Assembly: GCA_026874595.1 (NCBI GenBank)
Contig: CM049317.1
Coordinates: 42,184,401 to 42,248,400 of the forward strand
Direction of reading: 5' to 3'
Length of the DNA: 64,000 nt
Origin: Sipunculus nudus
Lineage: Eukaryota > Annelida > Sipuncula > Golfingiida > Sipunculidae
Shown here: positions 13,263 to 61,130 of the stretch, one piece after another
Layout: each line of letters starts with the position of its first letter
How positions within the stretch are numbered: the stretch's first letter is position 1
Position numbers and translations under genes: made by a program
The notes under the pieces: model-generated
The model's input: only the letters and a program-made list of their open reading frames with translations
Databases searched by the model: none
What the model was told of the DNA's origin: nothing

Positions 13263-15256
13263 ACAAGTGACCCATGGGTCATGACATTCAGCCGACTGAC
13301 ATGTTGACTATAAGTCCTTGCACAGGAAACTACTTAAGATAATGTAGGTGGCATCATTGTTCATGCATCTTAGCTTAAGTTCATCAAGACCCATAAGTCT
13401 TGGGTGCTCAAACATACCCCAAAACTCTGAGAATTTAGGTCACAGTGGCCGAATTTCAGGTTTCTGGGGGGAACTTTTGAGGAACTCTCAGGATGTCAAG
13501 TAAGAAGTTTCTGGGCCAAATGGTTATGATTTGTACCCTACTTTTGTAATCAAATTTTTAGTTATACTGGGGGGTACTTTTGAGCCCCATAGCTCAGACA
13601 ATATGGGTGACAGAGACCTAATTTCAGGTTTTCAAGAAGACTTTTTCATGGGCGTTCCTGCATGTTAAGATACAAGATTCTAGGTCCAGTCATTACAATT
13701 TGTGCCCTGTTAACAGATGACCACATCTTTAAAGGTCTCAAAAACAAAGAAAAAAATAGTAAAAAATAAAAAAAATCTAGATGGCACCACCAGTCTGCAG
13801 AAACTGATGAAACACTTCATGATCAATATCCATGCAAAGAGTCATTGTGATCAATGGATTAGTTGATCAGATACTTGAGCTTTTGTTTCATATTTTTCAT
13901 TATTCTGGGGGGGGGGGGGGGGTACTCCAGAGCCCCATAGCTTGAAGAATACAGGTAACAGAGACCTCATTCCAGGTTTCCAAGGAGATTTTTCATGAAC
14001 CTCTCTGGATGTAAGGTTAGAAGATTCCAGGTCCAGTGGTTAAAATTTGTGCCATGTTAACAGACAGACTGCCAGACGGCCGGACAGATGATGGACAATG
14101 AGTGATCGCTATAGCTCAGCTGATTCACAAGTCAGCTGAGCTAAAAAATTGTAAAAAAATAGGAAAAATACAGGTGGCGCCACCAGTCTGCAGAAACTGA
14201 AGAAACACTCCATGATCAATATCCATGCAAATAAACATAGTGATCAATGCATTAGTTGGTCAGATACCTGAGCTTTTGTATAAAATTTTTCATTATTCTG
14301 GGGGAGGGGGGGTACTCCAGAGCCCCATAGCTTGAAGAATACGGGTAACAGAGACCTCATTCCAGGTTTCCAAGGAGATTTTTCATGAACCTCTCTGGAT
14401 GTAAGGTTAGAAGATTCCAGGTCCAGTGGTTACAATTTGTGCCATGTTAACAGACAGACTGCCAGATGGCCGGACAGATGATGGACAATGAGTGATCGCT
14501 ATAGCTCAGCTGATTTACAAGTCAGCTGAGCTAAAAAATTGTAAAAAAATAGGAAAAATACAGGTGGCGCCACCAGTCTGCAGAAACTGAAGAAACACTC
14601 CATGATCAATATCCATGCAAAGAAACATAGTGATCAATGCATTAGTTGGTCAGATACTTGAGCTTTTGTATCAAATTTTTCATTATTCTGGGGGGGGGGG
14701 GGGTACTTTGGAGCCCCATAGCTTGAAGAATATGGGTAACAGAGACCTAATTCCAAGCTTCCATGGAGACTTTTCATGGACCTTCCTGGATGTAAAGTGA
14801 GAAGATTCCAGTGGCAGCAGTTACGATTTGTGCCCTGTAAATAGATGACCACATCTTTAAAGGTCTCAAAAATATGGAAAAAAAAATGTAAATAATCGAA
14901 AAAATACAGATGGAACCACCAGTTTGCAGAAACTGATGAAACACTCCATGATCAATATCCATGCAAAGAATCATGGTGATCAATGCATTGGTTGTTCATA
15001 TACTTGAGCTACTGTATCAAATTTTTCATTATTCTGGGGGGTACTTCAGAGCCCCATAGCTTGAAGAACAAGGGTAACAGAGAACTAATTCCAGGTTTCC
15101 AAGGAGACTTTCATGGATCTCTCTTGATGTAAAGTTAAAAGATTCCAGGTCCAGTGGTTACAATTTGTGCCCTGTTCACAGACAGACGGCCGGAAGGACG
15201 ACTGACAAAGAGAGATCGCTATAGCTCAGATGACTAACAGTCAGCTGAGCTAAAAA
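13263..15256 (+). mobile_element. family B element with tandem core-plus-end units
   Basis: The left end ACAAGTGACCCATGGGTCAT is at 13263 and the final right end TCAGCTGAGCTAAAAA is at 15256. The interior consists of about 340-390-bp core units with landmarks 'caccagtctgcagaaactga', 'catgatcaatatccatgc' and 'attctgggg..tact'. Two further right-end hairpins close units at 14147 and 14537, so the repeated unit there is core plus right end. G-runs of variable length sit at the same core position (13908-13922, 14301-14313, 14692-14703). ORFs inside (14615-14800 and others) are not credible genes. Confidence 0.78.
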
Positions 15257-15360
15257 TTAATCCCACAAAGTTTGACCAATATTCCTGATTTTAAAACTAA
15301 GTTTAACAGTGTTATTCACACCTAGGCTTGGCCATCTTAAAAGATATATGAATGAAATGC

Positions 15361-15912
15361 TACAGAGTATTTTTATCTTCTTAAATCTTGTCAGTTAGCA
15401 CTTACATTAGATCCTAATATTTTATCATATTTGACTATTAGGATTCAAATCCTGAACATTTTTTCTTTAAAAAAATCAAAATTGTCAATGTCTCAACAAA
15501 ATAATTAATTTAACATTAAAATTATAAGATTCATCTTGTTTATAAGTCCCGTGTATTGAAGGGGTGGGTGGGGAGGGGTCTCTGTTGTTACTGCTTGTTG
15601 CTGAAAAAAATGTAAAATTATAAGATTCATCTTGTTTACAGAGTATTTTTATCTTCTTAAATCTTGTCAGTTAGCACTTACATTAGATCCTAATATTTTA
15701 TCACATTTGACTATTAGGATTCAAATCCTGAACATTTTTTCTTTAAAAAAATCAAAATTGTCCATGTCTCAACAAAAGAATTAATTTAACATTAAAATTA
15801 TAAGATTCATCTTGTTTATAAGTACCGTGTATTGAAGGGGTGGGTGGGGAGGGGTCTCTGTTGTTACTGCTCGTTGCTGAAAAAAATGTAAAATTATAAG
15901 ATTCATCTTGTT
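15361..15912. repeat. 276-bp tandem duplication
   Basis: 15361-15636 and 15637-15912 are near-identical, with about five substitutions by eye (for example TCATATTT/TCACATTT, GTCAATG/GTCCATG). Each unit runs from 'tacagagtattttt' to 'ttcatcttgttt' and contains a GGGGTGGGTGGGGAGGGG stretch. This is a recent local duplication. Confidence 0.92.
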
Positions 15913-15943
15913 TATAGTACAGGTCTGTCAACAGAATGGGGAT

Positions 15944-15985
15944 GGGGGGGGGGGGGGGGGGAATGAGAGAGAGAGAGAGAGAGAA
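15944..15985. repeat. G homopolymer and (GA)n microsatellite
   Basis: A run of about 15 G is followed by GAATGA and nine or so GA repeats. A similar arrangement (G-rich then GA-rich) is found at 42254-42310 and 52905-53060. Confidence 0.85.
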
Positions 15986-16070: not shown

Positions 16071-17017
16071 CATACGTTGCGAAGCTGCATATTTTCGCTC
16101 GACCGCGGGGTCATTAAATGGATTAAACGGCTACCGATTACCCATGCGTACCTGATCTCACCACGCAGTATCTAACTGTAAAATTAGCCACTTTGTTATA
16201 GCAGGCTGTTTGATATTAATTTATCGGTTTTGCTCAGTATATCTCAAACTGAAATGCTTAGTGTCAAACATCTGCTCGCTCCGTAGCTGTTTGTACCATG
16301 CCGCCATGCACAAGTTCCTTGGGGTTCGTTAAATCTCGGGCTTCCTTCAACATTAAAGCAAATCAAATGAAACAACCATCATCAAAGAAAGTTTATTTTA
16401 GGCTGAAGCTACATTCACCAATAAAAACAAATGTTCCCAGGTTCATTGTCATTACAATCTTCGCAATATCAACGTCGTCATTATCTTTGAGATTATCGCA
16501 TTTGGACAGCTGAACAAAGACAGTTTTAGGCAATGCCGCCAGGTGGCACCACACTTACTCCTAGGCGGGAGCTTATGCTATCTGAGAAAGTCAAGCTAAA
16601 TTGACTGACTGAATCAGCAAAAAAGAGCATACGCGAGTAAATGAAAATTGTTGATGTCGTCATAGACTTTTTCCTTATATTGTTCACTACTTGAGATAAG
16701 TAAAAATAATCACAGTTTGTATATGAATATTGAATGCAGGATGTGTGCATGAATTTGTATTACATATACATGAAATCTGATATAATACAATAAACTCGTC
16801 CTTGTAGCTGTTCGCTGTCTATTTTTATCATCCCTCAGTTATCAACCAAGGTCAACCTGCCTAATAAGGACACCTCACTATTAAGGACAAAATGATTGAG
16901 TCCCTTGACTGTCCGCTGTAGACAGGTTTCACTGTATATATGCTACCAACTTGGGAGGAGAGGTCACCAGTACATCATTCCCGATCCGACTCTTTACCAG
17001 CAAGTTCCTCTTAAAAT
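16071..17017. other. unassigned region flanking the gypsy remnant
   Basis: Less AT-rich than its surroundings in 16075-16560. No recognised exon, RNA or element terminus. On the minus strand 16930-17017 follows the pol stop and could hold the start of a 3' LTR, but I could not delimit it. The frame at 16298-16513 (+) shows no known domain. Confidence 0.35.
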
Positions 17018-18357
17018 TCACTTACCGTAAACAAAGTCGGAGCAAACTGATTTCTTTATAGTTCTGCCATATCTGGTATGGGTGGTTGCGCTTGGAGTAG
17101 GTGGTACTGCTTCTGGCTCTGGAGGTGCTAGTTCCATGTGCCTGATCATCCTGTTGAGACTGTGAGGTGTCAACAGAAACTGGTGGTTTTGATCTATGCA
17201 CACTAGTTTGTGCTGTTCTAAGAACTGGAAAGGGTATCAGCTGCTCTGGTTGCTGATGCTCTTGGGTTTGTCGCAAATGTTGGTGGTTCCTCCTTAATAA
17301 TCTACCATCTTCAGTACATACCTCATAAGATCTGATGTCTGCTTTCCGCTAAACTCTAGCTTTGATACATCCTTTCTGGTAATTTAGCAGTTTGATTCTG
17401 ACAGTATCACCTGGTTTCAAATCATCAAGTTCTCTGGAACCAACATTATAATATCTGAACTGTTTTGCTTTACGTGTATACAGCTGATTATGCACATTTT
17501 CGACAGTCTGTGGCTTTAAAAGCTTACGAGATGTAGGAAGCTTTGTTCTGGTTCACCTACTGAATAATCTCTGACAAGGGGCACTGGAGGTGTATTCCTC
17601 CAGTCAAACGGGGCTATAAGTACGGATCTCTGTGGTCGTCCTGGGCTTTCCTCATCAGATTCTTAGCTGTCTTAACTGCATTATCAGCTTTACCATTGGA
17701 CTGTGGGTATCCAGGTGAACTAGTTATGTGCTCAAAATCATACAAGTCTGTGAACTTGGCGAAATCAAATAAATTGAATGATGGGCCATTATCAGATATT
17801 ACAGTATTGGGAAGTCCATGTCTAGCCATATGCTGCTTGAGCTTTCTGATCACAGTCTTAGCAGTTTTATTCTCAAGCAGATCGATCTCAAAAAGTTTGA
17901 ATAGTAGTCATTGTCTCTACCATTCAGCTCGAACAAATTGGTGCCCAGTTTAGCCCATGGCCAGGAATGCTATGAGTAATCATTGGTTCTTTCTGTTGAG
18001 ATGAACTGTACTTGTTACATGTTTCACACTTTGTAATGTAACTGTTTATGTCCTGACTCATACCTGGCCAATACACCACTTCCTTAGCCCTTGTATACCT
18101 CTTTGACCCTCATGGAGTCTCCACAGTACATCTTGCCAAGCTCTAGCTGGAACAACTAACCTCTCACCTTTAAAGATGAGGCCATCTTAAACTATCAGTT
18201 CCTCTTTGAATGTTGCATAGTGCCAGACTGGCTCTTGTTACTGTGTAGAGTCCTCTGGCCAGACATTCTGTATTGTGCTTTTAAGACTCTCCTTCTCACA
18301 ATCATGGTCTGCTGCCTGCTGAATGATTGTTAGTGTTTTATCTGAGATGGGCAGGTA
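17018..18357 (-). pseudogene. Ty3/gypsy pol remnant: RNase H tail, integrase, C-terminal tail
   Basis: Reading leftwards on the minus strand. Around 18300-18357 there is an RNase H/linker end (LPISDKTL). Next comes an integrase zinc-binding region with YWPGMSQDI and KCETCNKY near 18000-18090. The catalytic core spans about 17614-17930 with ISDNGPSF and GYPQSNGKAD. A GDTVRIKLLNY segment follows near 17400, then RSYEV and LRRNHQHLR near 17280-17350, then a basic tail ending at the stop near 17018. At least two frame changes and in-frame stops (for example a TAG after KARV near 17350) disable it. In the DDE core the first Asp position reads Asn (GTNLFEL) and the Glu position reads Asp (KADN), with the usual 35-residue spacing after SDNG. 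It belongs with the fragment at 19196-19926. Confidence 0.88.
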
Positions 18358-19926: not shown

Positions 19927-21095
19927 ATTGTATCCGCCAAAACAGAGTTTTGCGGATACTGTTTTCAGCTGGCCGCCGCTGCGGCCGCTGCGTAGGTGTC
20001 CCGAGAACTCCTCCGTAGCGGCTGGGTGGAATTCTACGAAACCTGGGATTATGTTCGGGTCACATGTGAACTGCTGCGCCCCGATTTTGTTTTGACCTCT
20101 GACCTTTCCTCTGCGTTCTGCGTCCGTTTGTGCGTCTGTATCCACACATAAACCCACATATCTCGGGAACCATTTGACCGATCAGGCTAAACATTTTACA
20201 CAAATGTAGCCCTTGGATAGCTTTATAACATACACAAAAAATGGTGGCGCCACCTGCAACCATTTTTGAACAGTGTCCATCTGTTCATCTGCCTTTGGAT
20301 AAAATCAGTCATATCTCTGCATTGGTTGGACTTATTCACCTGAAATTCGGCATGCGAATACATCCTGGATAGCTTTTCTGATTTTATGACAGGTGGCGCC
20401 ACCTACATTCATGTTTACGCTGCAGACATCCAAGCTCATATCTTGGGAACCGTTTGACCCATCAGGATAAAAATTTTATACAAATGTAGCCCTTGGATAG
20501 CTTTATAAAATACACTAAAAATGGTGGCGCCCCCGCAACCACTTTTGCACAGCGTCCGTCTGTTTGTCTGCCATGGGATAAAATCACTCGTATCTCGGCA
20601 GTGGTTTGACATATCTGCTAAAAATTTTGCAGGTTTATACATCCTGGATAGCTTTTTCGATTTTATGACAGGTGGCACCACCTACATTCTAGTTTATGCA
20701 GCAGACATCCAAGCTCATATCTTGGGAACCGTTTGACCGATAGGGCCAAAGTTTTGCATGTGTGTAGTTCTCACATAGCTCTTTATCATAAGCCACCTGC
20801 AACCATTTTTGCACAGCGTCCATCTGTTTGTCTGTCGTGGGCTAAAATCACTCATATACATGTAGTGGTTTGACCTATCTGCCTTAAATTTTGCAAATGT
20901 ATACAACTTGGACGGCTTTCTGGTTTTTGTGGTAGGTGGCGCAACCTACATACACAATTTGGCTGCAGACATCCATGCTAATATGCAACACTTCACTCTA
21001 TTTCCCCTTGCCACTCAATCCATGCCTCACTTCACCCATTCCACTCTGATTTAGGCGGATACACGTAGTCGCTTGTCGACTACCTGTATTCTAGT
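19927..21095 (-). mobile_element. family A element inserted in gypsy gag
   Basis: On the minus strand the left end is ACTAGAATACAGG, then the hairpin GTAGTCG-acaag-CGACTAC, then GTATCCGCCTAAATCAGAG. The right end is ACTCTGTTTTGGCGGATAC then AAT. These share an inverted subterminal motif. Core units are bounded by GGTGGCGCCACC or variants at about 20240, 20391, 20525 and 20669. Removing about 19927-21095 rejoins gag in frame across RDR and VVGIRD with no target duplication, consistent with insertion between A and T. On the plus strand the right edge reads hairpin, 7 nt, CTAG, T, exactly the layout of a canonical Helitron 3' end. Confidence 0.85.
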
Positions 21096-24665: not shown

Positions 24666-24719
24666 TATTATCCTCCAGTTTGGAATGCTCTGGTTCCTGG
24701 TGTATAACACAGAAGGGTA

Positions 24720-27386: not shown

Positions 27387-28920
27387 ACTAGATGTGTCGG
27401 AACGACACAAATGCCCCCACCTGGGGCAAATTAGAAACATTTGTTAAATTTTGTAAAATTTTTTAAGTTCAGGAGGTGTTGTATGGTCAAAAGTAGGTCA
27501 ACAAGGGCAAAATGCAACTCGATCTGTAACGGGTCATTATCAAGCAACACACCAAAAATCAGGCCAGTATCTGCAGGCATTGTGAAAAAGGTCCATATGC
27601 ATGTGCATTTTTCATAAAAATTCTGTCTTTCATGAAATTTTCTATGTTCAGGATCTGTCATATGGTCAAAAATAGGTTAACTGGGACGAAACGCGAACTG
27701 GATCTGTAAGTGGTCATTATGCGCCCACAGACCAAACATTAGGCCAGTATCTGTAAGCATTGCATTGCGAAACTAGAATATTAGCAAAAGCTGATAATCA
27801 GTTATAAATTTAAATTGGAGAGGTATGTACCATGTTTCATAACAATTCACCAAATGCTTCCTGAGAAATAAGCTCCTAAGTTTTTTTCTATACCAAGCTC
27901 TGTGACCTTGAAAAGTAGGTCAAGACCACCCATCTTTGAACTTGACCAAGATTTTGTTAATATAATGCAATAGCACTGAAGTAATGAAGTTCCTGTGTTG
28001 AATACCTTTGGAGATATCCTGCACAAAAGGCCAAAATTGAAAAATCTGATAAAATTTCATAAAAAATCAGAAATTGCAGGTGGCGCCACCAAAATTGTGT
28101 AGCACGTACAGACCATCAGTCCCAATGATCATAGTAAGTTTTGTGAAAATCCACACAATGCTTCCTGAGATATAAGCTTCTGAGTGTTTTTCTATAATCA
28201 GCTCTAAAATGTAGAAAAATGGGTCAAGGTCACCCATCTTCCAACTTAATCTCGATTTTATTGATATACATCTTCACTGATGAAATAAAATTTCAATAGT
28301 GAATCCTTTTATAGATATCCCGCTCACAAGGTAAAAGTTAACAGACGCAGAACGGACAGACGGACGGACACCGGACAGACAGATGGACGGACGAATAGAC
28401 GAATAGCTTGGGTGACGACAATAGCCCATCAGCCTATGAGCTGAGGGCTAAAACCGGCTGTACATGTACATTTGTCATAAAAATTTCTATTTTTCATGAA
28501 ATTTTCTATGTTTAGGAGCCGTAAAAAAATCGAAAGTAGGTCAACCAGGACGAAACGTGAACTCGATCTGTAACTGGTCATTATCTGCCCATACACCAAA
28601 AATTAGGCCAATATCTGCAGGCATTGCGAACAAAAGTCTGTACATGTGTATTTGTCATGAAAATATCTATTTTTCATGAAATTTTCTAAGTTTAGGAGCC
28701 GTAAAACGGTAAAAAGTAGGTCAACCGGGAGGAAACTCGAACTCATTCTGTAACTGGTCACTATCTGCCCACACACCAAAAATCAGGCCAATATCTGCAG
28801 GCATTGCGAAAAAAAGTCCGTACAACTGTTTGATTTTGGAATGACAGAATGACAGAAGGACAGAATGACGGACATGGGTAAAACTATATGCCCTGGCCAC
28901 TTTGTGGCGGGGGCATAAAA
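27387..28920 (+). mobile_element. family D element
   Basis: The left end is ACTAGATGTGTCGGAACGAC followed by ACAAATGCCCCCACC. It contains the hairpin GTGTCG-gaa-CGACAC and the subterminal ATGCCCCCACC. The right end is TATGCCCTGGCCAC-ttt-GTGGCGGGGGCATA then AAA, a near-perfect hairpin carrying the inverted motif. Core units of about 200 bp repeat 'aggccagtatctgcaggcattg' and 'ttcatgaaattttct', and ACGG-like repeats precede the right end. An F element is nested at 27772-28453. Confidence 0.78.
27772..28453 (+). mobile_element. family F element nested in D
   Basis: It begins ACTAGAATATTAGCAAAAGC and ends TAGCCCATCAGCC..CTGAGGGCTAAAA, with the stem TAGCCC/GGGCTA. ACGG repeats lie at about 28355-28400. 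Flanking D core reads through ('gcattgcgaa' left, 'gctgtacatgtac' right), so the insertion lacks an obvious duplication. The core includes GGTGGCGCCACC at 28080. The left subterminal motif is degenerate, so the family definition is less secure than A-E. Confidence 0.65.
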
Positions 28921-31224: not shown

Positions 31225-32759
31225 ACTAGACATTTCTTGGCACCGCAGGTGCCAGAGTATCCCCAGACATAGTACGGCCCCCCTCCTTTAAGAATAGGCC
31301 CCCATTTTTAGCAGCATATACTGACACTTGACAAGCAATTATTGTTTCTTCCATCTATCAATCCACAACCTTTTTGAAGATGTTGGTCTTGTGACCTTGA
31401 ACTTTTGGCACATCACAAGGCTATCCAAGATCTTCTGTCACCTTGATTTTGGGACAAATCCATGCAAATGATCTTGAGATATTCACTCTCTTAGCCTCCT
31501 GTGACCTTGACCTTTGACCTCATGACCCCAAAATCAATTCAGGTCTTGCTTTTCCAATGGGACATATACAAGTCAAGTTTGAAATCCATACATCAATAAA
31601 AGCAGGAATTATCATCCAGAAACTATTTTTTGGACAGATGGCTCCTGTGACCTTCACCTTTGACCTTGTGACCTCAAAATTGATAGGGGTCTTCCACTCT
31701 TGGCAGGTGAACTATATGTGCAAGATGAAAGATCTGAGATGAATTGTTTGGCTGAAAATACATCCACAATCTTTTTAAAGATGTGTCCTGTAACCCTTAC
31801 CTTTGACCTCATGACCCCAAAATCAATTCGGGCCTTGCTTTTCCAATGGGTCATATACAAGTCAAGTTTAAAATCCATACATCAATAAAAGCAGGAATTA
31901 TCATCCAGAAACTAATTTTTGACAGATAGCTCCTGTGGCCTTGACCTTTGACCTTGTGACCCCAAAATTGATATGGATCATCCACTATTGGCAAGTGAGG
32001 TATATATTCAAGATGGAAGACCTGGGATGAATGTTTGGCTTAAAATGCATCCACAGTATCTTTTAAGATGCCAGTCCAGTGACCTTGACCTTTGACCTCA
32101 TGACCCTAGAACCTATACGGTTCTTACTTTAGTGGTGGGCCATACATAAGTCACGTTTGAAATCCATATGGCTATCAACACTGGAGATATCACAAGAGGT
32201 GTGTGATTTTCACAAAATATGGACACATTAAAGGTCAAGGCCACTCTCATGGTAAAGGTCATGACCCAAATGTAAACAGACCTCATCCCATATCCCATCT
32301 CTCTACATGGGCATAATATGAAAGAAATCTGTCCATTAGTTTTTGACTTATAATGCTTACAGTACTGTCAAGTGGCAATTATGGGGGTATTAAAAGGCGT
32401 AAAAACAAGAAAAGGATAATAGGTGGTGCCACCAGTTTCCAGTATATCACAAGGCTATCCAAGATCTTCAGTCACCTTGATTTTTGGACCAGTCCATGCA
32501 AGCTGACTTGAGATATTTAAGAATTTGTGTTATTTTCAGCAAAAATGGACCTATTCAAGGTCAAGGTCACTCTCCTAACATTGGTCATGACCCCATTTTA
32601 AATAGGCTTCGTCCCCTGACCTATATCTATACAAATGTATAGTTTGAAAAAGATCAGTGAAATATGTTTTGAGTTATCCCGCTCACAAGGTTTTTCTGCG
32701 GCGGTGGCAGCGGGATCATCGTGAAACCATAGTATCCCGACTTCGTCTGGGGATACAAT
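31225..32759 (+). mobile_element. family E element
   Basis: The left end is ACTAGACATTTCTTGGCACC with the hairpin GGCACC-gca-GGTGCC, then GTATCCCCAGAC. The right end is TATCCCGACTTCGTCTGGGG then ATACAAT, with GTCTGGGGATAC as the exact inverse of the subterminal motif. Core units of about 300 bp contain 'gaccttgacctttgacc' and 'caaggctatccaagatctt'. It lies inside the interrupted C element. Confidence 0.8.
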
Positions 32760-32827: not shown

Positions 32828-33995
32828 ACTAGAATTCAGGTAGTCTACAAGCGACTATGCGTATCTGCCAAAATCAGAGTGGAACAGGTGAAGTGAGGCA
32901 TGGATTGAGTGGCAAGGGGAAATAGAGTGAGGTGTGTTGCATATTAGCATGGATGTCTGCAGCCTAAATGTGTATGTAGGTTGCGCCACCTACCACAAAT
33001 CCAGAAAGCTGTCCAAGTTGTATATATATGCAAAATTTCAGGCGGAAAAGTCAAACCACTACATGTATATGAGTGATTTCAGCCCATGGCAGACAAACAG
33101 ACAGACGCCGTGCAAAAATGGTTGCAGGTGCGCCTCCAGTTTGTGTATGATAAAGACCTATGTGAGATCTATACACATGCAAAATTTTGGCCCAATCGGT
33201 CAAATGGTTCCCGAGATATGAGCTTGGATGTCTGCAGCGTAAACTAGAATGTAGGTGGCGCCACCTGTCATAGAATCAAGTAAGCTGTCCAGGATGTATA
33301 AAACTGCAAAAATTTAGGCAGATATGTCAAACAACTGCCGAGATATGAGTGATATTATCCCACGGCAAACAAACAGATGGATGCTGTGCAAAAATGGTTG
33401 CAGATGGGGCCACCAGTTTTGCGTATGATAAAGAGGTATGTGAGATCTATAGACAAGCAAAATTTTGGCCCAATCAGTCAAACAGTTCCCGAGATATGAG
33501 CTTGGATGTCTGCAGCCTGAACATGAATGTAGGTGGCGCCACTTGTCATAAAATCAAGAAAGCTATCCAGAATGTATACGCATGCCGAATTTCAGGTGGA
33601 TAAGTCCAACCAATGCATAGAAATTAGTAATTTTATCCCAAGGCAGATGAACAGATAGACACTGTGCAAACATGATTGCAGGTGGCACCACCAATTTATG
33701 TGTATGTTATAAAGCTATCCAAGGGCTACATTTGTACAATTTTTTTTCCTGATGGGTCAAACGGTTCCCGAGATATTTGGGTTTATGTGTGGAAACAAAC
33801 CAACAAATGGATGCTGGGCAGAGAGGAAAGGTCAGAGGTCAAAACAAAATCGGGGCGCAGCAGTTCACATGTGACCCGAACATAATCCAGGGTTTTTGTA
33901 AAATTCAGCCCAGCAGTTACGGAGGAGTATGGACACCTACGGTGGCAGGGGGCTGAAAACATGTTATCCGCAAAACTCTGTTTTGGCGGATACAA
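32828..33995 (+). mobile_element. family A element, complete, 1.17 kb
   Basis: It starts ACTAGAATTCAGGTAGTCTA, with a hairpin carrying one substitution and CGTATCTGCCAAAATCAGAG. It ends TATCCGCAAAACTCTG..GGCGGATACAAT at 33995. About six core half-units with GGTGGCGCCAC boundaries lie between. Size and order match the inverted copy at 19927-21095. Confidence 0.87.
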
Positions 33996-34852
33996 TTAAG
34001 TTGAGTAAGGGATACCAATAAACTATAATCCATGTAGAGTTGTCTTTATATAGCCACAGAGCTGAACATCCATGATTGTAACATTGCCTGGTATGGTGAA
34101 TCACTTACATCATAAATCTAATTTTCTTAAAAGCTTTTAAAAAAAAATTTCTTGTCAATATTAACAAAAGATAACCTAAATCTAAATGTCTAGTGGCATG
34201 ATATAAAAGATGCTGATAGACTGGTGCCAGGCTAGATGTAACAGCATCATCACACCGCTAACTTATATGGTAAATTGACTCAATTCAATCTCCATAATTC
34301 AGCCCAAAATCATTCATGTTGAACTATTAATGACAATTTTTATAAGAATTATTGTAGGGATTATTCTTGTAAAATATTTAACAAACTGGCTTCAGTGGCA
34401 TCAGTAGAAAAAAGTTTCGCAGGTTTGTAACTCATATAGGAAGATACAGCAAAGTGGCAAAGTTCAGCTTCCCGTAACTAAGCCAACAAGCACTGAACCA
34501 AAACCATTTGAACAAACTTGAATTATCAACATCTGAGGATAATTAATGTGTGAGATTTAAGAATTTGGCCCAATGGTTTTTGTTGAGAAGATCTTTGTAG
34601 CCACTGAGCTTAAATTGGCTGTTATGGCATATGACTAAATTCAGCTTCCCATAACTTAGCCAAAAATCACTGAACAGAGACCATTTGAACAAACTTCAAA
34701 AAGCACTACCCTAGGATCATTTCTGTGCGATATTAATCATTTTGGCCATATGGTTTCAGAGAAGAAGTTTTTTGTAGCCCTCAGTGTGATACAGGCACTA
34801 ATGACCCTGTACAAAAAAGGCCGATGCAGGTGGCGCTACCAATACCACAATT
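33996..34852 (+). mobile_element. family C element, fourth segment
   Basis: From about 34165 the match is to 60013-60680 of the intact C copy ('aaatctaaatgtctagtggcat', 'taatgtgagatttaagaatttggccca', 'catttgaacaaacttc'). It breaks at 34852 within 'accaataccacaatt' and resumes at 40547. Confidence 0.72.
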
Positions 34853-42990: not shown

Positions 42991-45022
42991 ACAAGGGACC
43001 CATGGGTCATGGGGCTCAGCTGTTATATATGATAAAAAAATATGATTTAGAAATGAGGCACATGCTTGTTTTGTGTGGAAATAAATATAAGCTGTATTAT
43101 GAGTTGTGGGTGTTTAGCTTATGTATGATTTTGATAGTATCTTTGGAGACAGGGAAAAGGATTGATTTCATTTATTTTATTAACAAATGGAGTGCTACTG
43201 TCACACAGATTTTGACTTGGCCATATAACTTATAAGCAGAACATATAATTTAAGAGTTTAACTATTTATTAAAAATAATTACAAATTGTCCCATATATAA
43301 TTTTTATTAAAAAAGATAAGAGAATTGTATGATTTTTTAAAATAAAATACAACTGAAATGATTATTAGAATAATATCAAAGAATATATTCATGAATGCAT
43401 TCATGAATACATTTTGAAAGTATTTGCACTGGTATTCATATACTTTCATTTTTACCTGAATTCCCATTCTTATGCAAGAAATTTTATAATGGAGTACATA
43501 TTCATATTTGTATTCAAATACATTTGCAAAGTATTCGCACCATGTCTGGTATTTATTCAGTTTTCACCAAACAATGATGTTGAGAATCCAGAATATACAA
43601 AATTCACACATTTAAATAATGATCATAAGTACCTGGTTTTATGGCATTTATTCATATTAAAAAAAATAAATGTAATATATTCATTTTGGACTAATTTCAC
43701 ATCAATGTACACACTAGACACAGCAGGAATCTAGATTAATATTATCAACTGCATCTTTGTCTATCATTAATTTCCTTCATATGATCCCTAATGATCAGTA
43801 ATGAATAACATGATTTATTTTTTTATCATTAAAATTGAACTGAAAAATACCAAAGGTGACTGCATGGTGTTATTTGGAATATGTGACATTCTTCTAATAG
43901 ATACAAGATTCTTATATCATCAGTAACTGCAAGTTAATCTCCTGATATTATCAACTAACAAATTCCTTTTCCATTTTTCTTTAATTTGTTATTAAAAACC
44001 AATAAAAATTTATTAATATATTATTTATTGTTATGTTGTTAGTTAAAACTACTAGATGAGTTGGGTTAGACACCTGGATCAACTGTGGCTGGCCATAAGC
44101 TGCCTGGCTACCCCAGTGTATGCCTCGCATCAAGCGTGCCTAATTTGATGAAAGGTCAACAAGGTCAACATACAGGTGACTCAAGAGGGGCTGGGGTGAG
44201 CTAAGGTCTGACATGGTCTGATAAAAACATTAATAAAAGTTACAATTTTTGGCCAATTTCTTTCAGCTTTCTAAACTAAAAAGCTGAAATCCTTATGTGT
44301 GCATGATATGAAAATTATATCATCATTGCTCACAGGAAACCAACGTGCCATGGTCAAAGTTGGGCAAAATTTAAGGTACTTATTTTATATTTATACGAAT
44401 AACTTATAAAATTTGAAAAATTCAGAACTAATTTTGGGTATTCAATTGAATCTTGATTAAATAATGTTACATCCCTGACAAAAAATCTCTAGCTTCAGCA
44501 ATCCTCTTGTTAAGGGAGTAAATATATTTCTTGATTTTTTACAAAGTGCATTATGTTTGGGCCCATAACTTAAAACAATTACGCAATACTGACATCATTT
44601 CTGGCATGTGCTTAGAGAATGTATAGAAAAATATGTATATTATATATGATTTAAGTCAGATCAGTGGTTTTGATATTAGGCAGTCTTGAAGTGTAACAAT
44701 ATTTATTTTTTTTAATGGAAAAATGAAGTTTTTCATTAATATCTCGAAGATATTAAGTCCAAGAGACCAAATTCTTGGCATGGTAGGGGATTTTGGAGAC
44801 ATCTAATTGTATGCCAGATTTTAGGAACTGAGAGCTGAAGCTGGGGAGCTGAGCTCTTGCAAACTGCATAACACTAGCTTGATGTACACAATATGTTACA
44901 TGGTGCTTGAAAACTTGAATAAAATCTACAGTTTTTGATCAACTGGTTTCACATTTTGTTGTTAACAGACAAAATGCTAACAAAAACATGCTTTGAAAAT
45001 TAAATCCACAGTACTTGCAGAA
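42991..45022 (+). mobile_element. family B element (long form), left part
   Basis: ACAAGGGACCCATGGGTCAT then GGGGCTCAGCTGTTATATA. It is collinear with 36782-38790 and breaks at 'gtacttgcagaa', where another B begins. It resumes at 46608. Confidence 0.83.
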
Positions 45023-46607
45023 ACAAGTGACCCATGGGTCATGACGCTCAGCTGACTGGGAAGAGATTTGCAAAAGGAAATTTTATCATCTGAATGGTAG
45101 TATAGAACCATTCAACTGAAGCATCAAACAGATTAACCAACAGGGTGAGATTGTGTCTGTATTAATATATCTTAAAAAAAAAGAGAAAAAATGTGTAAAC
45201 TTTAAAAAAAATACAGGTGGCTCCACCAAGTCTGCAGAAACTAATAAAAACACTTAATGGTCAATATCCATGCAAAGAAGCATGGTGGTCTCTGGATTAG
45301 TTGTTCAGATACTTCAGCTTTTGTATCAAATTTTCCATTATTCTGAGGGATACTTTGGAGTCCTATAGCTTGAAGGATATGGGTAACAGAGACCTAATTT
45401 CAGGTTTCTGTAGACACTTTTCATGGGCCTCCTTGCATGACAAGAATGAAGATTCTAGGTCCAGTTGTTACAATTTTTACCCTGTTGACAGATAACCACA
45501 TCTTTAAAGGTCTCAAAAATAGAGAAAAAAATTCGTAAATATATGAAAAAAATAGAGGTGGCAAACCCAGTCTGCTAAAACTGATGGAACATGTCATGAT
45601 CAATACGTATGCCAAAAATCATGAGCATCAGTGTTGTAGTAATTGAGATACTGGATTTTTTGTATCAAATTTTTCATTATTCTGGGGGGTATTTTGGAGC
45701 CATACAGCTGAATGGATATGGGTAACAGAGACCTTATTTCAGGTTTCCATGGAGATTTTTCATGGGTCTCATGGGTCTACCTGTGTGTAAAGAATGAAGA
45801 TTCTAGGTCCAGTTGTTATGATTTGTGCCATGTTAACAGATGCTCATATCTTTAAAGGTCTCAAAAATAGGGGGGAAAAATCGAAAAAAGCCCAAACAAA
45901 TATATGTGGTGCCACCAGGTTGCAGAAACTGATGAAACACTCCATGATCAATATCCATACAAACAATCATGGTGGTCTCTGCATTAGTTGTTCAGATACT
46001 TCAGCTTTTGTATCAAATTTTCCATTATTCTGAGCTGTACTTTGGAGTGGCATAGCTCAAAGGATATGGGTAACAAAGACCTAATTTCAGGTTTCCATGG
46101 AGACTTTTCATAGGTCTCTCAGAATGTCAAGAATGAAGATTCTAGGTCGAATGTTTACGATTTGTGCCCTGTTAATAGTGTTAACAGATGTTCACATTTT
46201 TAAAGGTCTCAAAAATAGAGAAAAAAATTCGTAAAAAATTGAAAAATACAGGTGGCGCCACCAGTCTGCAGGAACTGATGATACATCTCATGATCAATAT
46301 GTATGCCAAAAACCATGACCATCAGTGATGTGGTTAATGAGATATTCAAGTTTTTGTATGAATTTTTTTACTATTCTGGGGGGTACTTTGAGGCCCCATA
46401 GCTCAAAGGATATGGGTAACAGAGACCTAATTCCAGGTTTCCAAGGAGATTTTTCATAGACCTCTCTAGATGTAAAGTAAGAAGATTCCAGGTCAAGTGG
46501 TTACGATTTGTGCCGTGTTAACGGACAGATGGCCGAATGGCCGGACGGACGACGGACAAAGAGTGATCACAATAGCTCAGATGACTTACAATCAGCCGAG
46601 CTAAAAA
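45023..46607 (+). mobile_element. family B element (short core form) nested in a long B
   Basis: The left end ACAAGTGACCCATGGGTCAT is at 45023. The right end TAGCTCAGATGACT..AATCAGCCGAGCTA is at 46603. Three to four core units of about 340 bp ('tctgcagaaact', 'gatcaatatccatgc', 'attctggggggta') lie between, with one GGTGGCGCCACC at about 46251. The host B is contiguous across the site in the copy at 38790 ('acttacaggaaaaaaacgtgcc'), so the insertion lies in an A-run without a visible duplication. Confidence 0.83.
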
Positions 46608-47154
46608 AATGCGCCATGGTCAAAGTTGGGCAAAATTTAATTTGTTAATATTTAAAAAAAAATTAAAAGATTTTGATCTAATTTAATTTTGATTAATTAA
46701 AGTTATATTACTGGAAAAAAGTCCATAGCTTTCTCATGTTTTAAGTGATCAAATATTTTTCCTGATTTTTTACAAAATGCATTATGTTTGGGCCCATAAC
46801 TTTTTTAAATTACACAATACAGACATAATTTCTGGCATGTACATAGGAAAAATATATGGGGGAATATTTATGGTAAATATGAGGAAAAACAGATGAGTAG
46901 TTTTGATATTAGGCAGTCCTGAAGTGTGAAAATAGGTTGTTAATAAAAAATTGAGGTTTTTCATTAATTTCTCAAAGGAACGAAGTCGCAAAGACCCAGT
47001 TTTCGGCTTGGTAGGAGATCTTGGGGACATCTAACATTATGCCAAATTTTGATTCCTAGGTCTAACGCTTTCAAAACATGCCACATCTACGGACAGACGA
47101 CGGACAATGGACCACAACTATAGCTCAGATGACTTATAGTCAGCTGAGCTAAAA
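46608..47154 (+). mobile_element. family B element (long form), right part
   Basis: It continues the host of 45023-46607 ('atgcgccatggtcaaagttggg') and ends with the B right hairpin TAGCTCAGATGAC..GTCAGCTGAGCTA at about 47121-47150. Confidence 0.82.
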
Positions 47155-48224
47155 AATCGAGAAAGCAATCCAAGATGTATAAACATGCAAAATCTTTAGG
47201 CAGATAAGTCAAACCACTACAGAGATGCAAGTGATTTTTGCCCACGGCAGACAAACAGACAAACGCTGTGCAAAATGGTTGCCGGTGGCCCCTCAACTTT
47301 TGTGTATGAAAAAGAGCTATGTGATATCTATACACATGCAAAATTTTGGCCGAATCAGTCAAACGGTTCCCGAGATATGAGCTTGGATGTATGCAGCATA
47401 AACTAGAATGTAGGTGGCGCCACTGGTCATAAAATCAAGAAAGCTATCCAGGATGTATAAACCTGCAAGATTTTAGGAAGATATGTCAAACCACTGCTGA
47501 GATATGAGTAATTTTATCCCATGGCAGACAAACAGACGGATGCTGTGCAAAAATAGTTGCAGGAGGTGCCACCAGTTTTGCATATGATAAAGAGCTATGT
47601 GAGATCTATACACATGCAAAATTTTGGCCCAATCGGTCAAACGGTTCCCGAGATATGAGCTTGGTATCTGGAGTGTAAACGTGAATGTAGGTGGTGTCAC
47701 CTGTCACAAAATCCAGAAAGCTATCCAGGATGTATAAACATGCAAAATTTTAGGTTTATATGTCAAACTATGTTATCCCATGGCACACAAACAGATGGAC
47801 CCTGTGCAAAAATAGTTGCAGGAGGTGCCACCAGTTTTGCATATGATAAAGAGCTATGTGAGATCTAAACACATGCAAAATTTTGCCCCAATTGGTCAAA
47901 CGGTTCCAGAGATATGAGCTTGGATGTCTGCAGCATAAACTAGAATGTAGTTGGCGCCACCTGTCATAAAATCAAGAAAGCTATCCAGGATGTATAAACC
48001 TGCAAGATTTTAGGCGGATATGTCAAATCACTGCCGTGATATGAGTAATTTTATCCCACGGCAGATAAACAGATGGACGCTGTGCAAAAATAGTTGCAGA
48101 AGGCGCCACCAGTTTTGCATATGATAAAGAGCTATGTGAGATCTATACATATGCAAAATTTTGGCCCAATCAGTCAAATGGTTCCTGAGATATGAGCTTG
48201 GTTTGCAGCGTAAACGTGAATGTA
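47155..48224 (+). mobile_element. family A core units (continuation of the A element at 42776)
   Basis: It resumes with 'atcgagaaagcaatccaaga', the sequence expected after the B insertion point. Half-units of about 165 bp carry 'gatatgagcttggatgtctgcagc' and 'gcagacaaacagacgga'. It is broken at 48224 by a TIR element. Confidence 0.78.
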
Positions 48225-53022: not shown

Positions 53023-53055
<33 letters not shown>

Positions 53056-54450: not shown

Positions 54451-55161
54451 ACTAGAATACAGGTAGTAAAAAAGCGACTACGTGTATCCGCCTAAATCAG
54501 AGTGGAACGGGTGAAGTGAGGCATGGATTAAGTGGCAAGGGGAAATAGAATGAAGAGTTGCATATTAGCATGGATGTCTGCAGCCAAATTGTGTATGAAG
54601 GTTGCCCCCCCCCTACCACAAAATCCAGAAAGCCGTCCAAGTTGTATACATATGCAAAATTTAAGGCAGATAAGTCAAACCACTACATGTATATGACTGA
54701 TTTTAGCCCGTGGCAGACAATCAGATGGACGCTGAGCAAAAATAGTTGCAGGAGGCGCCACCAGTTTTGCATATGATAAAGAGCTATGTGAGATATATAC
54801 ATATGCAAAACTTTGGCCCAATCAGTCAAACGGTTCCCAAGATATGAGCTTGGATGTCTGCTGCATAAACTAGAATGCAGGTGGCGCCACCTGTCATAAA
54901 ATCAAGAGAGCTGTCGGGGATGTATAAACCTGCAAAATTTTAGCCAGATATGTCAAACCACTGCCGAGATATGAGTGATTTTATCCCATGGCATACAAAC
55001 AGACAGGAGCTGTGCAAAAATGGCTGCAGGTAGCGCCACCAGTTTTGCGTATGATAAAGAGCTATGTGAAACCTATACACATGAACAATTTCAAGTTCCC
55101 GAGATATGAGCTTGGATGTCTGCAGCATAAACGTGAATGTAGGTGGCGCCACCTGTCATAA
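54451..55161 (+). mobile_element. family A element without right end
   Basis: ACTAGAATACAGGTAGTAAA then AAGCGACTACGTGTATCCGCC. Core half-units carry GGTGGCGCCACC at 54880 and 55141. It ends at 'tgtcataaaatcaga', where a B right hairpin takes over. Confidence 0.75.
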
Positions 55162-55696
55162 AATCAGATGACTTATAGTCAGCTGAGCTAAAAATTTGCA
55201 AAATTCAAATCTAATTTTTGGTTAACAATTGAATGTTGATTTATTAAAGTTATATCCCTGAAAAATTCTCATGTTAAGTGAGTAAATATATTTCCTGATT
55301 TTAAAAAAATTGCATTATATTTGGACCCATAACTTTAAAACAATACTCAATACTGACCTAATTTTTGGTAGGTAAATAGACAATGTATGGAAGAATATGA
55401 ATACAAAATATAATCAAAAACAGACCAGTGGTTTCAATATTAGGCAGCCTTGAAGTGTAACAATGGCTTTTTTATGGAAAACGGAGGTTTTTCCTTAATA
55501 TTTCAAAGGAACAATGTCCTAATGACGCAATTTTCAGTATGTCAGGAGATTTTGGGCACATCTAACTGTATGCAAAATTTTGGAATCATAAGTCCAACGG
55601 TTTCAAAATGTGCCCTGTTAACAGACAGACAGCCGGACGACGGACAAAGGGCCATGACTATAGCTCAGATGACTTATAGTCAGCTAAGCTAAAAAC
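55162..55696 (+). mobile_element. family B right-end modules
   Basis: Two B right ends: AGATGACTTATAGTCAGCTG then AGCTAAAAA near 55163-55192, joined straight to A core, and a full module ending TATAGTCAGCTAAGCTAAAA at about 55696, preceded by an ACGG-type run. The first may mark an A/B recombination. Confidence 0.7.
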
Positions 55697-55862: not shown

Positions 55863-57964
55863 ACTAGATATTTCTTGGCACCACAGGTGCCATAGTATCA
55901 CCAGACTATCAATCCCCCCCCCCCTTTAAGAATACTCCCCCCATCTTCAGCAGCATATACTGACATTTGGCAAGCTCCTATGGTTTCTTCCATCTAACAA
56001 CTGAAACAATATTTTTCACCAAATATGGGGGCCAATAAAGAGAAGCACTCAGAATCAAAAAGGGGATAAATTTATACTATAAAATGGTAGGTGGCACCAA
56101 CTGTTTGGTGACAAGAAAACTCTCCAAGATGGATCTTCATGCCATATTGGAGACCAACACATTGAAGGACTCCTCAGATATGAGCAATTTTCATCTAAAA
56201 CAAATAAACAGATGGACATCATGGCAAAACAATTGCAGATGGTGCCACCAGTCTTATGTACAAGATGGAGGAGTCCAAAATCTATGGATATGCACGTTTT
56301 CAGGCCAATAGGGCAAACCACTCCTCAAAAAAGGGCATTAATTTATACTACAAAAACGGAAAGGTAGGTGGTGCCACTTGTTTGGTTTATGAGAAAACTT
56401 TCAAAGATGGATGGACATGCCAAATTTTAGACATATACCTTGAATCATTCCGGAGATATAAGCAAATTTCACCAAAAGCACATGTATAGATGGACCCCAC
56501 AGCAAAACGATTGCAGATGGCGCCACCTGTCTTGAGTAGAAGATGAAGAAGTGCAAGATCTATAATGGATAGGCACAATTTCAGGCCAATATTGCAAACA
56601 CTCCTCAGAAAAGGGCATTAAAATATTCTACAAAAACAGGAAGGTAGGTGGCACCACCAGTCTGGATTACAAGAAAACTTTCCAAGATGGATGGACGTCA
56701 AATTTCAGATGTATAACTTGGACCACTCTGGAGATATGAGCAATTTTCCCCCAAAGCACATGTACAGATGGACTCTACAGCAAACGATTGCAGATGGCAC
56801 CACAAGTTTTGAATACAAGATGGAGGTATCCAAGATCAATGTACAAGCACAATTTCAGCCCTATCTGTCAATAAGTTTTAGAGTTATAATGCTCATAGTA
56901 CTGTCAAGTGGCAATGATTGGGTATTAAAAGGCACAAAAACAAGAGAAAGACAGAAGGTGGCACCACCTGTCTTTTGCAAAAGACAAAGCTATCCAAGAT
57001 CTTCTGTCAATTTGATTTTTGGACCATTGCATGCATCCCTTATTGAGATATTTATGATTAAGTATGATTTTCACCATATATGGCAAAATTCAAGGTCAAG
57101 GCCACTCTCACAGGAAAGGTCATGACACCAATTTAAATATACTTCATCCCATAACCCGTGTCTATGTATATGCATAATATGAAAGAAATCTTTCCATTAG
57201 TTTTTGACTTAGGCCAAAAAAAATAAAAGGTATGATTCTCAGGCACCGCCCGCATCAATTTAAACCCTTGCATCAAACATTTTTATTTTGATTTTCAATA
57301 GAAACTCACCAATTTCGACCTGCAGTCGCTCAGACATTTCTTTCAAGAAGAAAAAATCATACAATTTCCTTTGTTTTGTAGTGTTGTTACTTGTTTAGCA
57401 AAATAAATCTATTATTTTAATGGTTTTCCCTATTCATTTGACATTTTTATCGAAACATATAAAAAATTAAAAATAAAAAAAACGCCCGCCCGCACTGATT
57501 TCTGAAAAAAAGTGCCTGAGAACCATACCTTTTTTTTATTTTGGCCTTATAATGCTCACAGTTCTGTTAAGTGGCATTGATGAAGGTGTTAAATGGCATG
57601 AAAACAAGAAAAGGATAACAGATGGCGCCACCAGTTTCAGGTACATGACAACACTATCAAAGATCTTTGGTCAAGTTGATTTTTGGATCAATCAATGCAA
57701 GAATTCTTGAGGTATTTAGAATTTGTCTGATTTTCCCTCAAAATGGACCTATTCAAGATCAAGGTCACCCTCCTAGTAAAGGTCATGACCCCATTTTAAA
57801 TAGGCATCGTCCTCTCACCCATATCTCTGCACATGTCATGTTTGGTAAAGATCGGTAAATATTTTTTGAGTTCGCGTCCAAACGAAAACTCTGTGGGGGC
57901 GGCGGCGGAGACGCCGCAACCCTGCCTAAACCATAGTATCTCCAGACTTTGTCTGGCAAAACAA
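55863..57964 (+). mobile_element. family E element with nested MITE
   Basis: The left end is ACTAGATATTTCTTGGCACC with GGCACC-aca-GGTGCC and GTATCACCAGAC. The right end is AGTATCTCCAGACTTTGTCT then GGCAAAACAA near 57964, degenerate against the other E copy. Core units of about 170 bp have 'ggtggcaccacc'-like borders and 'gcaaaacgattgcagatgg'. A C-run lies at 55914-55922. The element at 57212-57546 is inserted in it. Confidence 0.77.
57212..57546. mobile_element. 335-bp Harbinger-like MITE, TTA duplication
   Basis: Terminal inverted repeats of about 33 bp: GGCCAAAAAAAATAAAAGG with GTATGATTCTCAGGCAC on the left, and GGCCAAAATAAAAAAAAGG with GTATGGTTCTCAGGCAC as the inverse on the right. TTA flanks both sides (57209-57211, 57547-57549). 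The related E copy near 32345 reads GACTTATAATGC without insertion, confirming the duplication. No coding capacity. TWA duplication suggests PIF/Harbinger. Confidence 0.83.
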
Positions 57965-58297: not shown

Positions 58298-58440
58298 AAC
58301 TAGATACAGGTAGTTGAAAGGGACTATGTGTATCCTCCAAAATCAGAGTAGCACAGGTGAAGTGAGGCATGGATTGAGTGGTAAGGGAAAATAGTGTGAA
58401 ATGTATATCTGCCATGATTGTAGGCTGCACCACCAGAGGC
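58298..58440 (+). mobile_element. family A left fragment
   Basis: ACTAGATACAGGTAGTTGAA then AGGGACTATGTGTATCCTCC, followed by 'gtgaagtgaggcatggattg'. The hairpin is degraded. It stops after about 140 bp. Confidence 0.7.
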
Positions 58441-59046
58441 CAATACTGCAAAATCACTCCTGAAAAAAGGGCATTAATTCATTCAACACAAATGGAAAGG
58501 TAAGTGGTGCCAGCTGTCTGGTTTACAAGGAAACTTTCCAAGATGGATGAACATACCAAATTTCAGACCAATACCTTGACCCAATCCTGAGATATAAGAA
58601 ATTTTCACCAAAAGCACATGTACAAATAGACGCCACTGGAAAACGATTGCAGATGGCACCACCAGTCTTTAGTATAAGAGGGAGGAGTCCAAGATCTATA
58701 TATATGCACAATTTCAGGCTTATAATGCAAATCACTCCGGGGAAAAGGGCATTAATTTATTCTACAAAAAAAGGAAAGGTAAGTGGCGCCACCTGTCTGG
58801 TTTATGAGAAAACTTTCCGATATGAATGAACATGCCAAAATTCAGACCAATAACTTGACCCACTCCTGATATATGAGCAATTTTCACCCAAAGCATATGA
58901 ACGGATGGACACCACATGAAAACAATTGCAGATGGCGCCACCATTCTTGAGTACAAGATGGCAGACTCCAAGATCTATGGATATGCACAATTTCAGGCCG
59001 ATACTGAAAATCACTCCTGAGAAAAGGGCATTAATTTATTCTACAA
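58441..59046 (+). mobile_element. family E-type core units
   Basis: Tandem units shared with 56050-56900 ('gagaaaactttcc', 'gcagatggcgccacc', 'aagggcattaatttattctaca'). No termini. Confidence 0.65.
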
Positions 59047-61130
59047 ACAAGGGCCTACAGGCCTAATGCGAACCTGTGCAATTGGATATACACCAGGTAT
59101 AATGGTTCAATGCTGGACCATTACTTTTCAAGTAACATGTGTAACATGTATACATGAACAATGCAAGAACTAAACATTTTGAACAAGAAATAATTACACA
59201 AACATCACTGCTGAAATTCTGGCATTGGTGCACACAACACAAAAATGATTGAAGCTGGCACCACCAGTTTTATACAACGAAGCTATCAGAGATATATACA
59301 TATGCCCAATATCAGACTGATATGTCAAACCCCTCCTGAGAAATAAGCAGGGACATACACTGTGCAAAAATGATTGTAGGTGGTGCCACCAGTCTTGTAC
59401 ACAATATAGCTCCGATATGTATAAATATGCCTAATTTCAGGCGGATACATCAAATTCCTCCGTAGAAATGAGCAGGCACATACATTGTGCAAAAGTAATT
59501 GTAGGTGGTGACACCTGTCTTGTGAACAGGAAATCCATCAATAATGCATAGACAGGTCATAATATCAGGCCAATACATCAAACTTCCCTTGAGTTTGATG
59601 CACTGGGCTGACCAGGCTTAGGTGAGAAAGGCATTGAAAAGCAAGTTAACTGTGACAAATTGCAGGCTCAAGCAACTGCACTGAGTGAACTCTTGACCTG
59701 CACCTGGCTAGACTGAGTGAACTTTTGACCTTTACCTGGCTGCACTGAGTGAACTCTTGACCTGTGGCATAACCTGACACAGTTGGCAGTTTGCAAAAGC
59801 TATAAATAGATCCAGACTAACCTTTGCTGCCAAATCTGATACAGTGGGCAGTCTGACAAAACTGTAAATAGAATGCAGCTACTGAACTGAGTGAACTCTT
59901 GACTGTTGCCTAATCTGATACAGTTGCCAGTCTGCCAAAGTTTTAATTAGATCCAGGCTGACCTTTGGCCTGTTGCCAAATCTGAAATAGTTAGCAACCT
60001 GCCATGCTATTTAACCTGAAATCTAAATGTCTAGTGGCATAATGTAATAGATGCTGATAAACTGGTGCCAGGCTCAATGTAACTGCTTCACACAGCTAAC
60101 ATACATGGTAAAATGACCCAATTCAATCTCCCTAATTCAGCCAAAAAATCATTCATGTGGAACCATTAAAGACAATTATTATAAGAATTATTGTGGGAAT
60201 TATTCTTGTAGATACTAAACAAATTGGCTTCAGTGGTGTAAGTCAAAAAACATTTTGCAGGTTTATAACTCACATAAGAAGATACAGCAAACTTGCTAAG
60301 TTCAGCTTCCCGTAACTCAGCCAAAAAGCTCTGAACCAAAACCATTTAAATAAACTTGAATTATCAACATCTGAGGATAATTAATGTGAGAGATTTAAGA
60401 ATTTGGCCCAGTGGCTTTTGAGAAGAAGATCTTTGCAGCCACTGCGCAAAAATGGGTTGTAATGCCATATGACTAAATTCAGCTTCCCATCACTCAGTCA
60501 AAAGTCACTAAACAGAGACCATTTGAACAAACTTAAGAAAGCACTACCCTAGGAGCATTTCTGTGCAATATTAAACAATTTGGCTTTAGGCTTTCAGAGA
60601 AGAAGTTTTTTTAGCCTCTGTATGCTTCGGGCACCGTTGGCCCCCGTACAAAAAGAGCAATGCAGGTGGCGCCAAAAATACCTCAATTTCAGATATGACA
60701 CAAGTGACCAAAATTAACATAAAATTTGATGATGATAGCTCAAACCGTTTCTGAGACTGTAATTTTAGCATGCAAATGAGTTAGTTCAACTTCCTGTAAC
60801 TTGGTCAAAAGTCACCGAACTGGAACCATCTGAACAAACTTGAGAGAGATTGATCCAGGGAACATTTCTGTGAAATATTGGACAATTTGGCTGGAAAGTT
60901 TCAGAGAAGAAGATTTATAAGGTTTTAACGCTTTTTCTCTAGAAAATCGAAATCAATGCAGATACCCAATAATAAGCTCTAGGGCACCAAGTTTCACATG
61001 TGACAAATTCTTACATGTAATTTGGAGCTGCTAGATCCGAAGACTTCCAGCCATAGACAGCCAACCTATGATGGCAGATGGCGGACGGCCGTCGCGGCGC
61101 CATTGCATAAGCTCACAGGTTCGCTAAAAA
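59047..61130 (+). mobile_element. family C element, complete, 2.08 kb
   Basis: The left end is ACAAGGGCCTACAGGCCTAA then TGCGAACCTGTGC. The right end is GCTCACAGGTTCGCTAAAAA. GCGAACCTGTG and CACAGGTTCGC are exact inverses. Internal landmarks are tandem 'gagtgaactcttgacct' units (59680-59910) and the conserved right half from 60000. There is an imperfect GACGGCCGTCGCGGCGCC stretch near 61083-61101 before the end. No clear right-end hairpin was found, unlike A, B, D and E. This is the reference copy for reading the broken C element at 27197-40987. Confidence 0.83.

Follow-up and report, generated by a model that had tools for sequence, protein, structure and literature searches.

Five families of short repetitive elements, A to E, lie side by side in a 64,000-nucleotide stretch of the Sipunculus nudus genome (assembly GCA_026874595.1, contig CM049317.1, positions 42,184,401 to 42,248,400; the window hereafter), and these are very probably Helentron-associated interspersed elements (HINEs), that is, non-autonomous Helentrons, of which families B and D are tied to driver lineages of their own, with each HINE presumably following the driver whose ends match. 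The original prediction, made from the letters of the window, had assigned the families to this class by their layout, and the assignment is supported by the end plan, by the insertion sites of one B and one A copy, and by autonomous B and D elements with the same ends and the same 5' array. An autonomous Rep-encoding element with matching ends, of the kind it called for, was found for B and D (about 12-16 kb, with both ends and the 5' tandem array in common) but for neither A nor E in the sample described below. HINEs are an already known kind of element, and the two driver links are what is added here.

The shared end plan proposed for A-E holds: both ends are present where they had been placed, and in all six full elements (A1, A2, B1, C1, D1 and E1) a subterminal motif returns inverted at the far end, in the form of subterminal inverted repeats (subTIRs) of 11-14 bp with no more than one mismatch. 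Inverted matches of equal or greater length arose in 0 or 1 of 200 letter shuffles per element, and the A motif occurs 15 times in the window at up to two mismatches, against 1.06 expected. Perfect stems of 6-7 bp (6 bp being the minimum for listing) adjoin the terminus in the listed copies of A-E, and the C copy at 59047 has, by eye, a 3' stem of 5 bp. The termini read CTAG in A, D and E and CTTG in B and C, each followed by T; the 5' ends read ATTG, TAGC or TATG, and none reads TC. A and E have related ends of the form ATTGTATCC...CTAGT. According to PMC4067079 and PMC7492417, published HINEs have their 5' subTIR 2-4 bases inside the 5' end and a palindrome after the 3' subTIR. By this layout the orientation first given is reversed: the end taken as left, with AC[T/A]AG and a hairpin, corresponds to the 3' end and the right one to the 5' end, so that the true 3' terminus of A-E is read here as the hairpin followed by CT[A/T]GT, with the true 5' terminus opposite.

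Smaller elements of the predicted layout had mixed outcomes. The TAAAAA tail, counted as part of the element end, is for B mostly the T-run target. The microsatellite said to precede the right ends was not borne out, since the count of GTC[CTG] within bases 21-220, numbered from the true 5' end, exceeds that in letter shuffles in none of the six elements; short GTCC/GTCT runs are visible by eye in B and D. Covariation of the hairpin arms, examined in the B 3' hairpin, finds weak support, with one of seven pairs swapping A:T for G:C (17 and 10 paired and 1 mispaired among 28 distinct sequences), the rows having been chosen by likeness to three references, one of which has the G:C form, which weakens that support. 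The outermost pair speaks against covariation, being T-A in 17 of the 28 sequences and unpaired in 11.

The B HINE at 45023 interrupts an A run (a T run in the element's true orientation). Two paralogues, near 12335 and 38800, have this run intact, and comparison with them reveals no duplication other than, at most, a single base of the run. The A copy inside element c, an autonomous element described below, fits insertion between two Ts in comparison with its relative b, in one case and over a diverged alignment. The sites examined, one B and one A, are accordingly T-rich or TT and lack a fixed-length target duplication. Target duplications, together with DDE transposases, had been named in advance as findings that would refute the assignment. 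A further candidate, a C copy holding E and A insertions, was compared with its paralogue as the empty site and dropped when the flanks failed to align cleanly.

Exact 3'-end words, counted on both strands of the 1.43 Gb searched, number 508 for A, 9,702 for B, 6,965 for C, 2,556 for D and 3,982 for E, with 0 for each reversed-word control; diverged copies fall outside these counts. Because the 64 kb of the window hold as many as 8 B-like 3' cores, lone B ends near Rep genes carry little weight, and the argument for drivers rests on common limits of homology. A search of the genome with the Rep profile PF14214, in which 150 of 195 candidates were scored, gave at least 143 Rep matches, including several open frames of 1,600-2,426 amino acids. 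The sample drawn comprised 68 loci, 52 from the Rep list (4 + 16 + 20 + 12) and 16 relatives of element c; four Rep loci were read around, 48 more and the 16 relatives of c on the 3' side, and most of the 52 were covered over only 2-3 kb downstream.

The driver of family B is represented by element c on contig C17, in which the B 3' end lies 1 kb past an open reading frame (ORF) of 2,342 amino acids. By arithmetic, copies of the driver span about C17:35625477-35640366 (14.9 kb) and about C10:71595571-71611305 (15.7 kb). When a query running from the 3' end of the ORF (ORF to query position q700) past the B terminus (q1724) was scored against 39 other loci, eight reached the terminus (two of them in two pieces), all stopping at q1722-1729 and none going past, and the other 31 diverged earlier. 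In the sister lineage d, for which the query spanned a terminus at q1094, 29 of 39 loci stop at q1094-1101 and nine stop short; the single one that runs on is a 99% copy on the same chromosome. B-type 3' ends follow the ORF in 12 of the 16 relatives of c, mostly as the variant TGGCCCATGGGCCA with CTAGT instead of TGACCCATGGGTCA with CTTGT. At the other side, the B 5' end is matched at 31/34 and 34/36 in the C17 copy and at 34/36 twice in the C10 copy, and homology between the two copies starts at the outer B 5' end. The B HINE at 13263-15252 can be aligned to the C10 copy: its bases 1-1772 (of 1,990) match the 5' part there at 79% over 1,795 columns, and by this alignment it would in effect be the driver's 5' array plus its 3' end. 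Every array unit of this HINE holds a copy of the 5' hairpin end. The B tandem unit thus includes the whole 5' hairpin end, which places several 5' ends in a row within one element (14107-14151, 14497-14541 and 15218-15258), as also in the C17 and C10 driver copies.

The protein of element c, in one frame of 2,342 amino acids, matches Helitron_like_N (2.3e-27), PIF1 (2.8e-23) and, weakly, Exo_endo_phos (1.9e-4), which gives the B driver the Rep and PIF1 helicase of a Helentron, with an endonuclease-like C-terminus, in one ORF. It contains SPHIHMLMW and YACATYIVSYVSK, which we take to be the HUH motif and the two-tyrosine motif, respectively. Lineage a has PIF1 and a clear Exo_endo_phos match (1.7e-13), and c can be aligned with it through the same region; in lineage a no A-E end was found, and two candidate places with a hairpin plus CT[AT]GT were seen. 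In the N-terminal part of the B driver (locus L010), the frame that encodes Rep also contains, ahead of it, a Herpes_teg_N-like domain (5e-12) and a DUF6570 domain (8.9e-17). An A HINE occupies the matching place in both driver copies, C17 and C10, and is absent from the relative b; it was probably carried along as the B driver multiplied.

The D driver is represented by copies on contigs C3 (about 41766494-41778502) and C5 (about 20300939-20313328). Both carry the D 5' end at 25/25 and the D 3' end at 31/32, their mutual homology begins and stops at the D ends, and the 180-bp units of their array match the D HINE at up to 89%. With a query spanning the D terminus (q772), 27 of 39 other loci stop at q772-778; five of these 27 also span at least 200 bases of the ORF end, and the rest begin at q360 or later. 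Rep matches exceed the cut-off in both copies. The D C-terminus, which has a stop in the frame examined, is homologous over about 310 residues to that of a, b and c, with 31-33% identity both to a and to c. Since only 31-33% of these residues are identical, the B and D drivers are, on this protein comparison, separate and divergent lineages, each with its own ends. An alternative in which the B and D ends belong to separate HINEs inserted beside Rep genes is contradicted by the common homology limits of both drivers.

Several observations weigh against this account. A B-type end was not found in four of the 16 relatives of c (L019, L020, L022 and L028), nor in b, which is related to c at 93%, over the 5 kb read past its ORF, and the Exo_endo_phos match of c scores 21.7 bits, under the Pfam cut-off of 24.5. 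For D, five of the 39 loci pass the terminus (all from q717 to about q901) and seven stop short, and the frames of the two copies are shortened to 964 amino acids and to 915 amino acids with one stop. The B insertion at 45023 leaves one extra A, so that a 1-base duplication is possible. Lastly, among the 68 sampled loci, which cover part of the Rep loci, there was no driver for A or E and a single candidate for C (lineage g), and of 13 Rep loci on contig C1 only one has an exact A 3' end within 10 kb, this end being part of an A copy that lies upstream of the Rep gene in the B-driver lineage. As a separate observation on D, the five loci that run through the terminus (two on C15 and one each on C7, C2 and C1) enter the same flank, which is C-like in L034, as if a D end had been multiplied jointly with C sequence, the two forming a single unit.

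It is possible, if on balance doubtful, that A, C and E depend on drivers of other end-families acting in trans, or that their own drivers are extinct. In the sampled Rep loci no A or E terminus forms the homology limit of a Rep element. For C, lineage g has a C-family tail about 340 bp past its ORF and a 30/30 match to the C 3' end further on; of 39 other matches to this query, 38 start at q398 and one at q408, within C sequence, and the matches listed include no second copy of ORF plus tail. Against trans mobilisation or extinction stands the partial sampling, with 52 loci taken from at least 143 Rep matches and most of them covered over 2-3 kb downstream. Other ends beside Rep genes were rejected as driver termini: C 3' ends at L044 and L066 have only 38 bp in common and were taken as neighbouring HINEs, and in L060 an A body leads up to the A 3' end, which lies partly within the reading frame, as in an A copy inserted in a c-like ORF. 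The remaining end matches near Rep loci occur in both orientations, as expected from dense HINEs.

The original prediction favoured a single transposition machinery with family-specific recognition of the ends. One autonomous machinery serving all five families would account for ends built on one plan, for A copies inside the B-driver lineage and for the lack of a separate A or E driver in the sample. However, B and D each have a cognate driver with its own ends, and the divergence of the two proteins makes this proposal highly unlikely; one kind of machinery with one lineage per end-family fits. That the families are miniature inverted-repeat transposable elements (MITEs) moved by cut and paste by a DDE transposase, as high copy number, short length and inverted repeats near both ends might suggest, is scarcely credible, although no search aimed at a DDE transposase was made: the repeats are subterminal, comparison of one B insertion with its two empty paralogues reveals at most a single duplicated base of the A/T run (with no fixed-length duplication at the A site either) and Rep-encoding drivers have both ends of B and D.

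On the preferred reading, of HINEs that follow drivers with matching ends, the B and D HINEs would be internally deleted relatives of autonomous elements of about 12-16 kb. The Rep of a driver would nick 5' ends that belong to its end-family; rolling-circle replication would follow, in which the helicase peels off a strand, and the 3' hairpin with CT[A/T]G-T would end the process, each HINE thus following the driver whose ends it matches. A, E and C presumably have, or had, such drivers.

The closest parallel is Cg_HINE of Crassostrea gigas, which, in the accessible text of PMC7492417, likewise has a 5' subTIR with a complementary inverted repeat, a 3' subTIR followed by a palindrome, central satellite-like repeats, T-rich sites without target duplication and several coexisting families with unrelated modules. 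It also has a short GTCY-type microsatellite, which in S. nudus does not exceed shuffles, and it differs in that none of the 10 autonomous Helentrons described there could be related to the HINEs, whereas here both ends and the array link B and D to drivers. The HINE/DINE-1 elements with Helentron partners, as presented in the parts of PMC4067079 available, share Rep/helicase/endonuclease partners, subTIRs, a 3' stem loop, a TT preference, a variable number of terminal Ts and an origin of HINEs as deletion derivatives; here, drivers and HINEs in addition have a common 5' tandem array, which in B repeats the 5' end itself. The Pearl family (CvA, CvE and CvG, oyster), compared by description only from the available portions of PMC7492417 and PMC11136912, also combines conserved ends with central repeats. 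With canonical Helitrons, as outlined in the same portion of PMC4067079, the elements share a rolling-circle Rep/helicase, and the CTAG of A, D and E fits a 3' CTRR. They depart from the canonical form (5' TC, 3' CTRR, insertion between A and T) in having no 5' TC, in the CTTG of B and C, in insertion at T runs (B and A), in the endonuclease-like C-terminus and in the subterminal inverted repeats.

The families had also been described as having different bodies, and most pairs indeed show no match. Once the ends are trimmed, the bodies of A and C, of A and D, and of C and E have only 18-35 bp in common, at the 12-bp palindrome GGTGGCGCCACC, and A2 and C1 also match at 67% over 215 bp; no other pair, including every pair with B, gives a match at E 1e-3, though B carries GGTGGCGCCACC. 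The palindrome occurs in 17 exact copies in the window (8599-55153), among them 14173 (B), 20243 (A), 28079 (D) and 30475 (a C-like piece), against 0 in 100 shuffles, and in 84 copies at up to three mismatches. In the genome it numbers 111,729 exact copies, roughly one every 13 kb, and the reversed word 14. The B driver carries it in its 5' array; in the D driver none was found, at up to two mismatches, in the 5' parts that were read. GGTGGCGCCACC is thus a common core of otherwise dissimilar HINE bodies. A-like arrays in drivers align with the E arrays of the window at about 66-68%. Common descent of a central repeat is the plain explanation for the palindrome in A, C and E; for B and D no such descent was detected.

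Taken alone, without comparison columns, the palindrome columns were first measured at 0.86 (35 sites) and 0.76 (16 sites). Across mixed monomer types, with seeds outside the palindrome, its 12 columns were kept at 0.66 against 0.54 and at 0.72 against 0.56, and none of 32 other 12-column windows was as well kept in either run (74 and 72 overlapping sets of windows). Within monomer types it was kept no better than its flanks (0.83 against 0.84, 0.92 against 0.87 and 0.85 against 0.83 in clusters of 20, 19 and 6 copies), with 22, 11 and 11 of 38 windows equalling it. These clusters leave aside a fourth one, of 6 copies, whose alignment was poor, and the 38 of 89 copies whose clusters were too small for the comparison. 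Selection on the palindrome is therefore unsupported, and we regard it as unlikely that it is a functional cis-element, either a host-factor binding site or a breakpoint for the exchange of central repeats among Helentron lineages. The sequence of its arms, YAGGTGGCGCC, in our estimation resembles the CTCF core. In open PMC text no paper joining Helentrons with CTCF was found, and none relevant for GGTGGCGCCACC as a string. The string GGCGCC does not occur in the main text of PMC7492417.

The elements placed in the window are listed in the table. Apart from these, a tandem array of a 34-bp unit occupies 3521-7696 (about 123 copies, 96% matches), an array of a 22/88-bp unit at 24716-26030 is separate from the HINE arrays, and the sequence at about 16900-19900, adjoining the A element at 19927, has by eye the look of a decayed retroelement.

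Table. Helentron-associated elements and related features in the window (positions counted from its first base).
Feature	Position	Strand	Remarks
Family B HINE, complete	13263..15252	-	5' end at 15252, 3' end (GGGTCACTTGT) at 13263; sequence and end test
Palindrome GGTGGCGCCACC in B array	14173..14184	.	one of the exact window copies
Family A HINE, complete	19927..21095	+	5' ATTGTATCCGCC ... CTAGT 3'; sequence and end test
Family D HINE	27387..28917	-	180-bp array units common with D drivers, up to 89% identity; sequence, end test and alignment
Family E HINE, complete	31225..32759	-	sequence and end test
Family A HINE, complete	32828..33996	-	sequence and end test (tested as 32829-33997)
Larger B-like repeat	42991..47156	-	3' end ...GGGTCCCTTGT (type at driver copy d); split by the B HINE at 45023; right boundary approximate
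Family B HINE within larger B-like repeat	45023..46603	-	5' boundary in A run, approximate; empty paralogues near 12335 and 38800
Family A HINE without true 5' end, joined to B-like 5' hairpin	54451..55166	-	sequence
Family E HINE, second copy	55863..57955	-	5' end position approximate
Family C HINE, complete	59047..61127	-	sequence and end test (tested from 59048)

HINEs of the Pacific oyster house its most abundant dispersed satellite-like arrays, according to the accessible text of PMC7492417, and the driver links matter because that study, in the same text, could not tie HINEs to autonomous Helentrons. With two end-families each tied to a driver lineage of their own, through both ends and the array, which Rep moves which ends becomes a testable matter. 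The palindrome poses a separate and simple question for chromatin biology: if it were a cis-element, rolling-circle hitchhikers would have spread more than 100,000 such sites through one animal genome.

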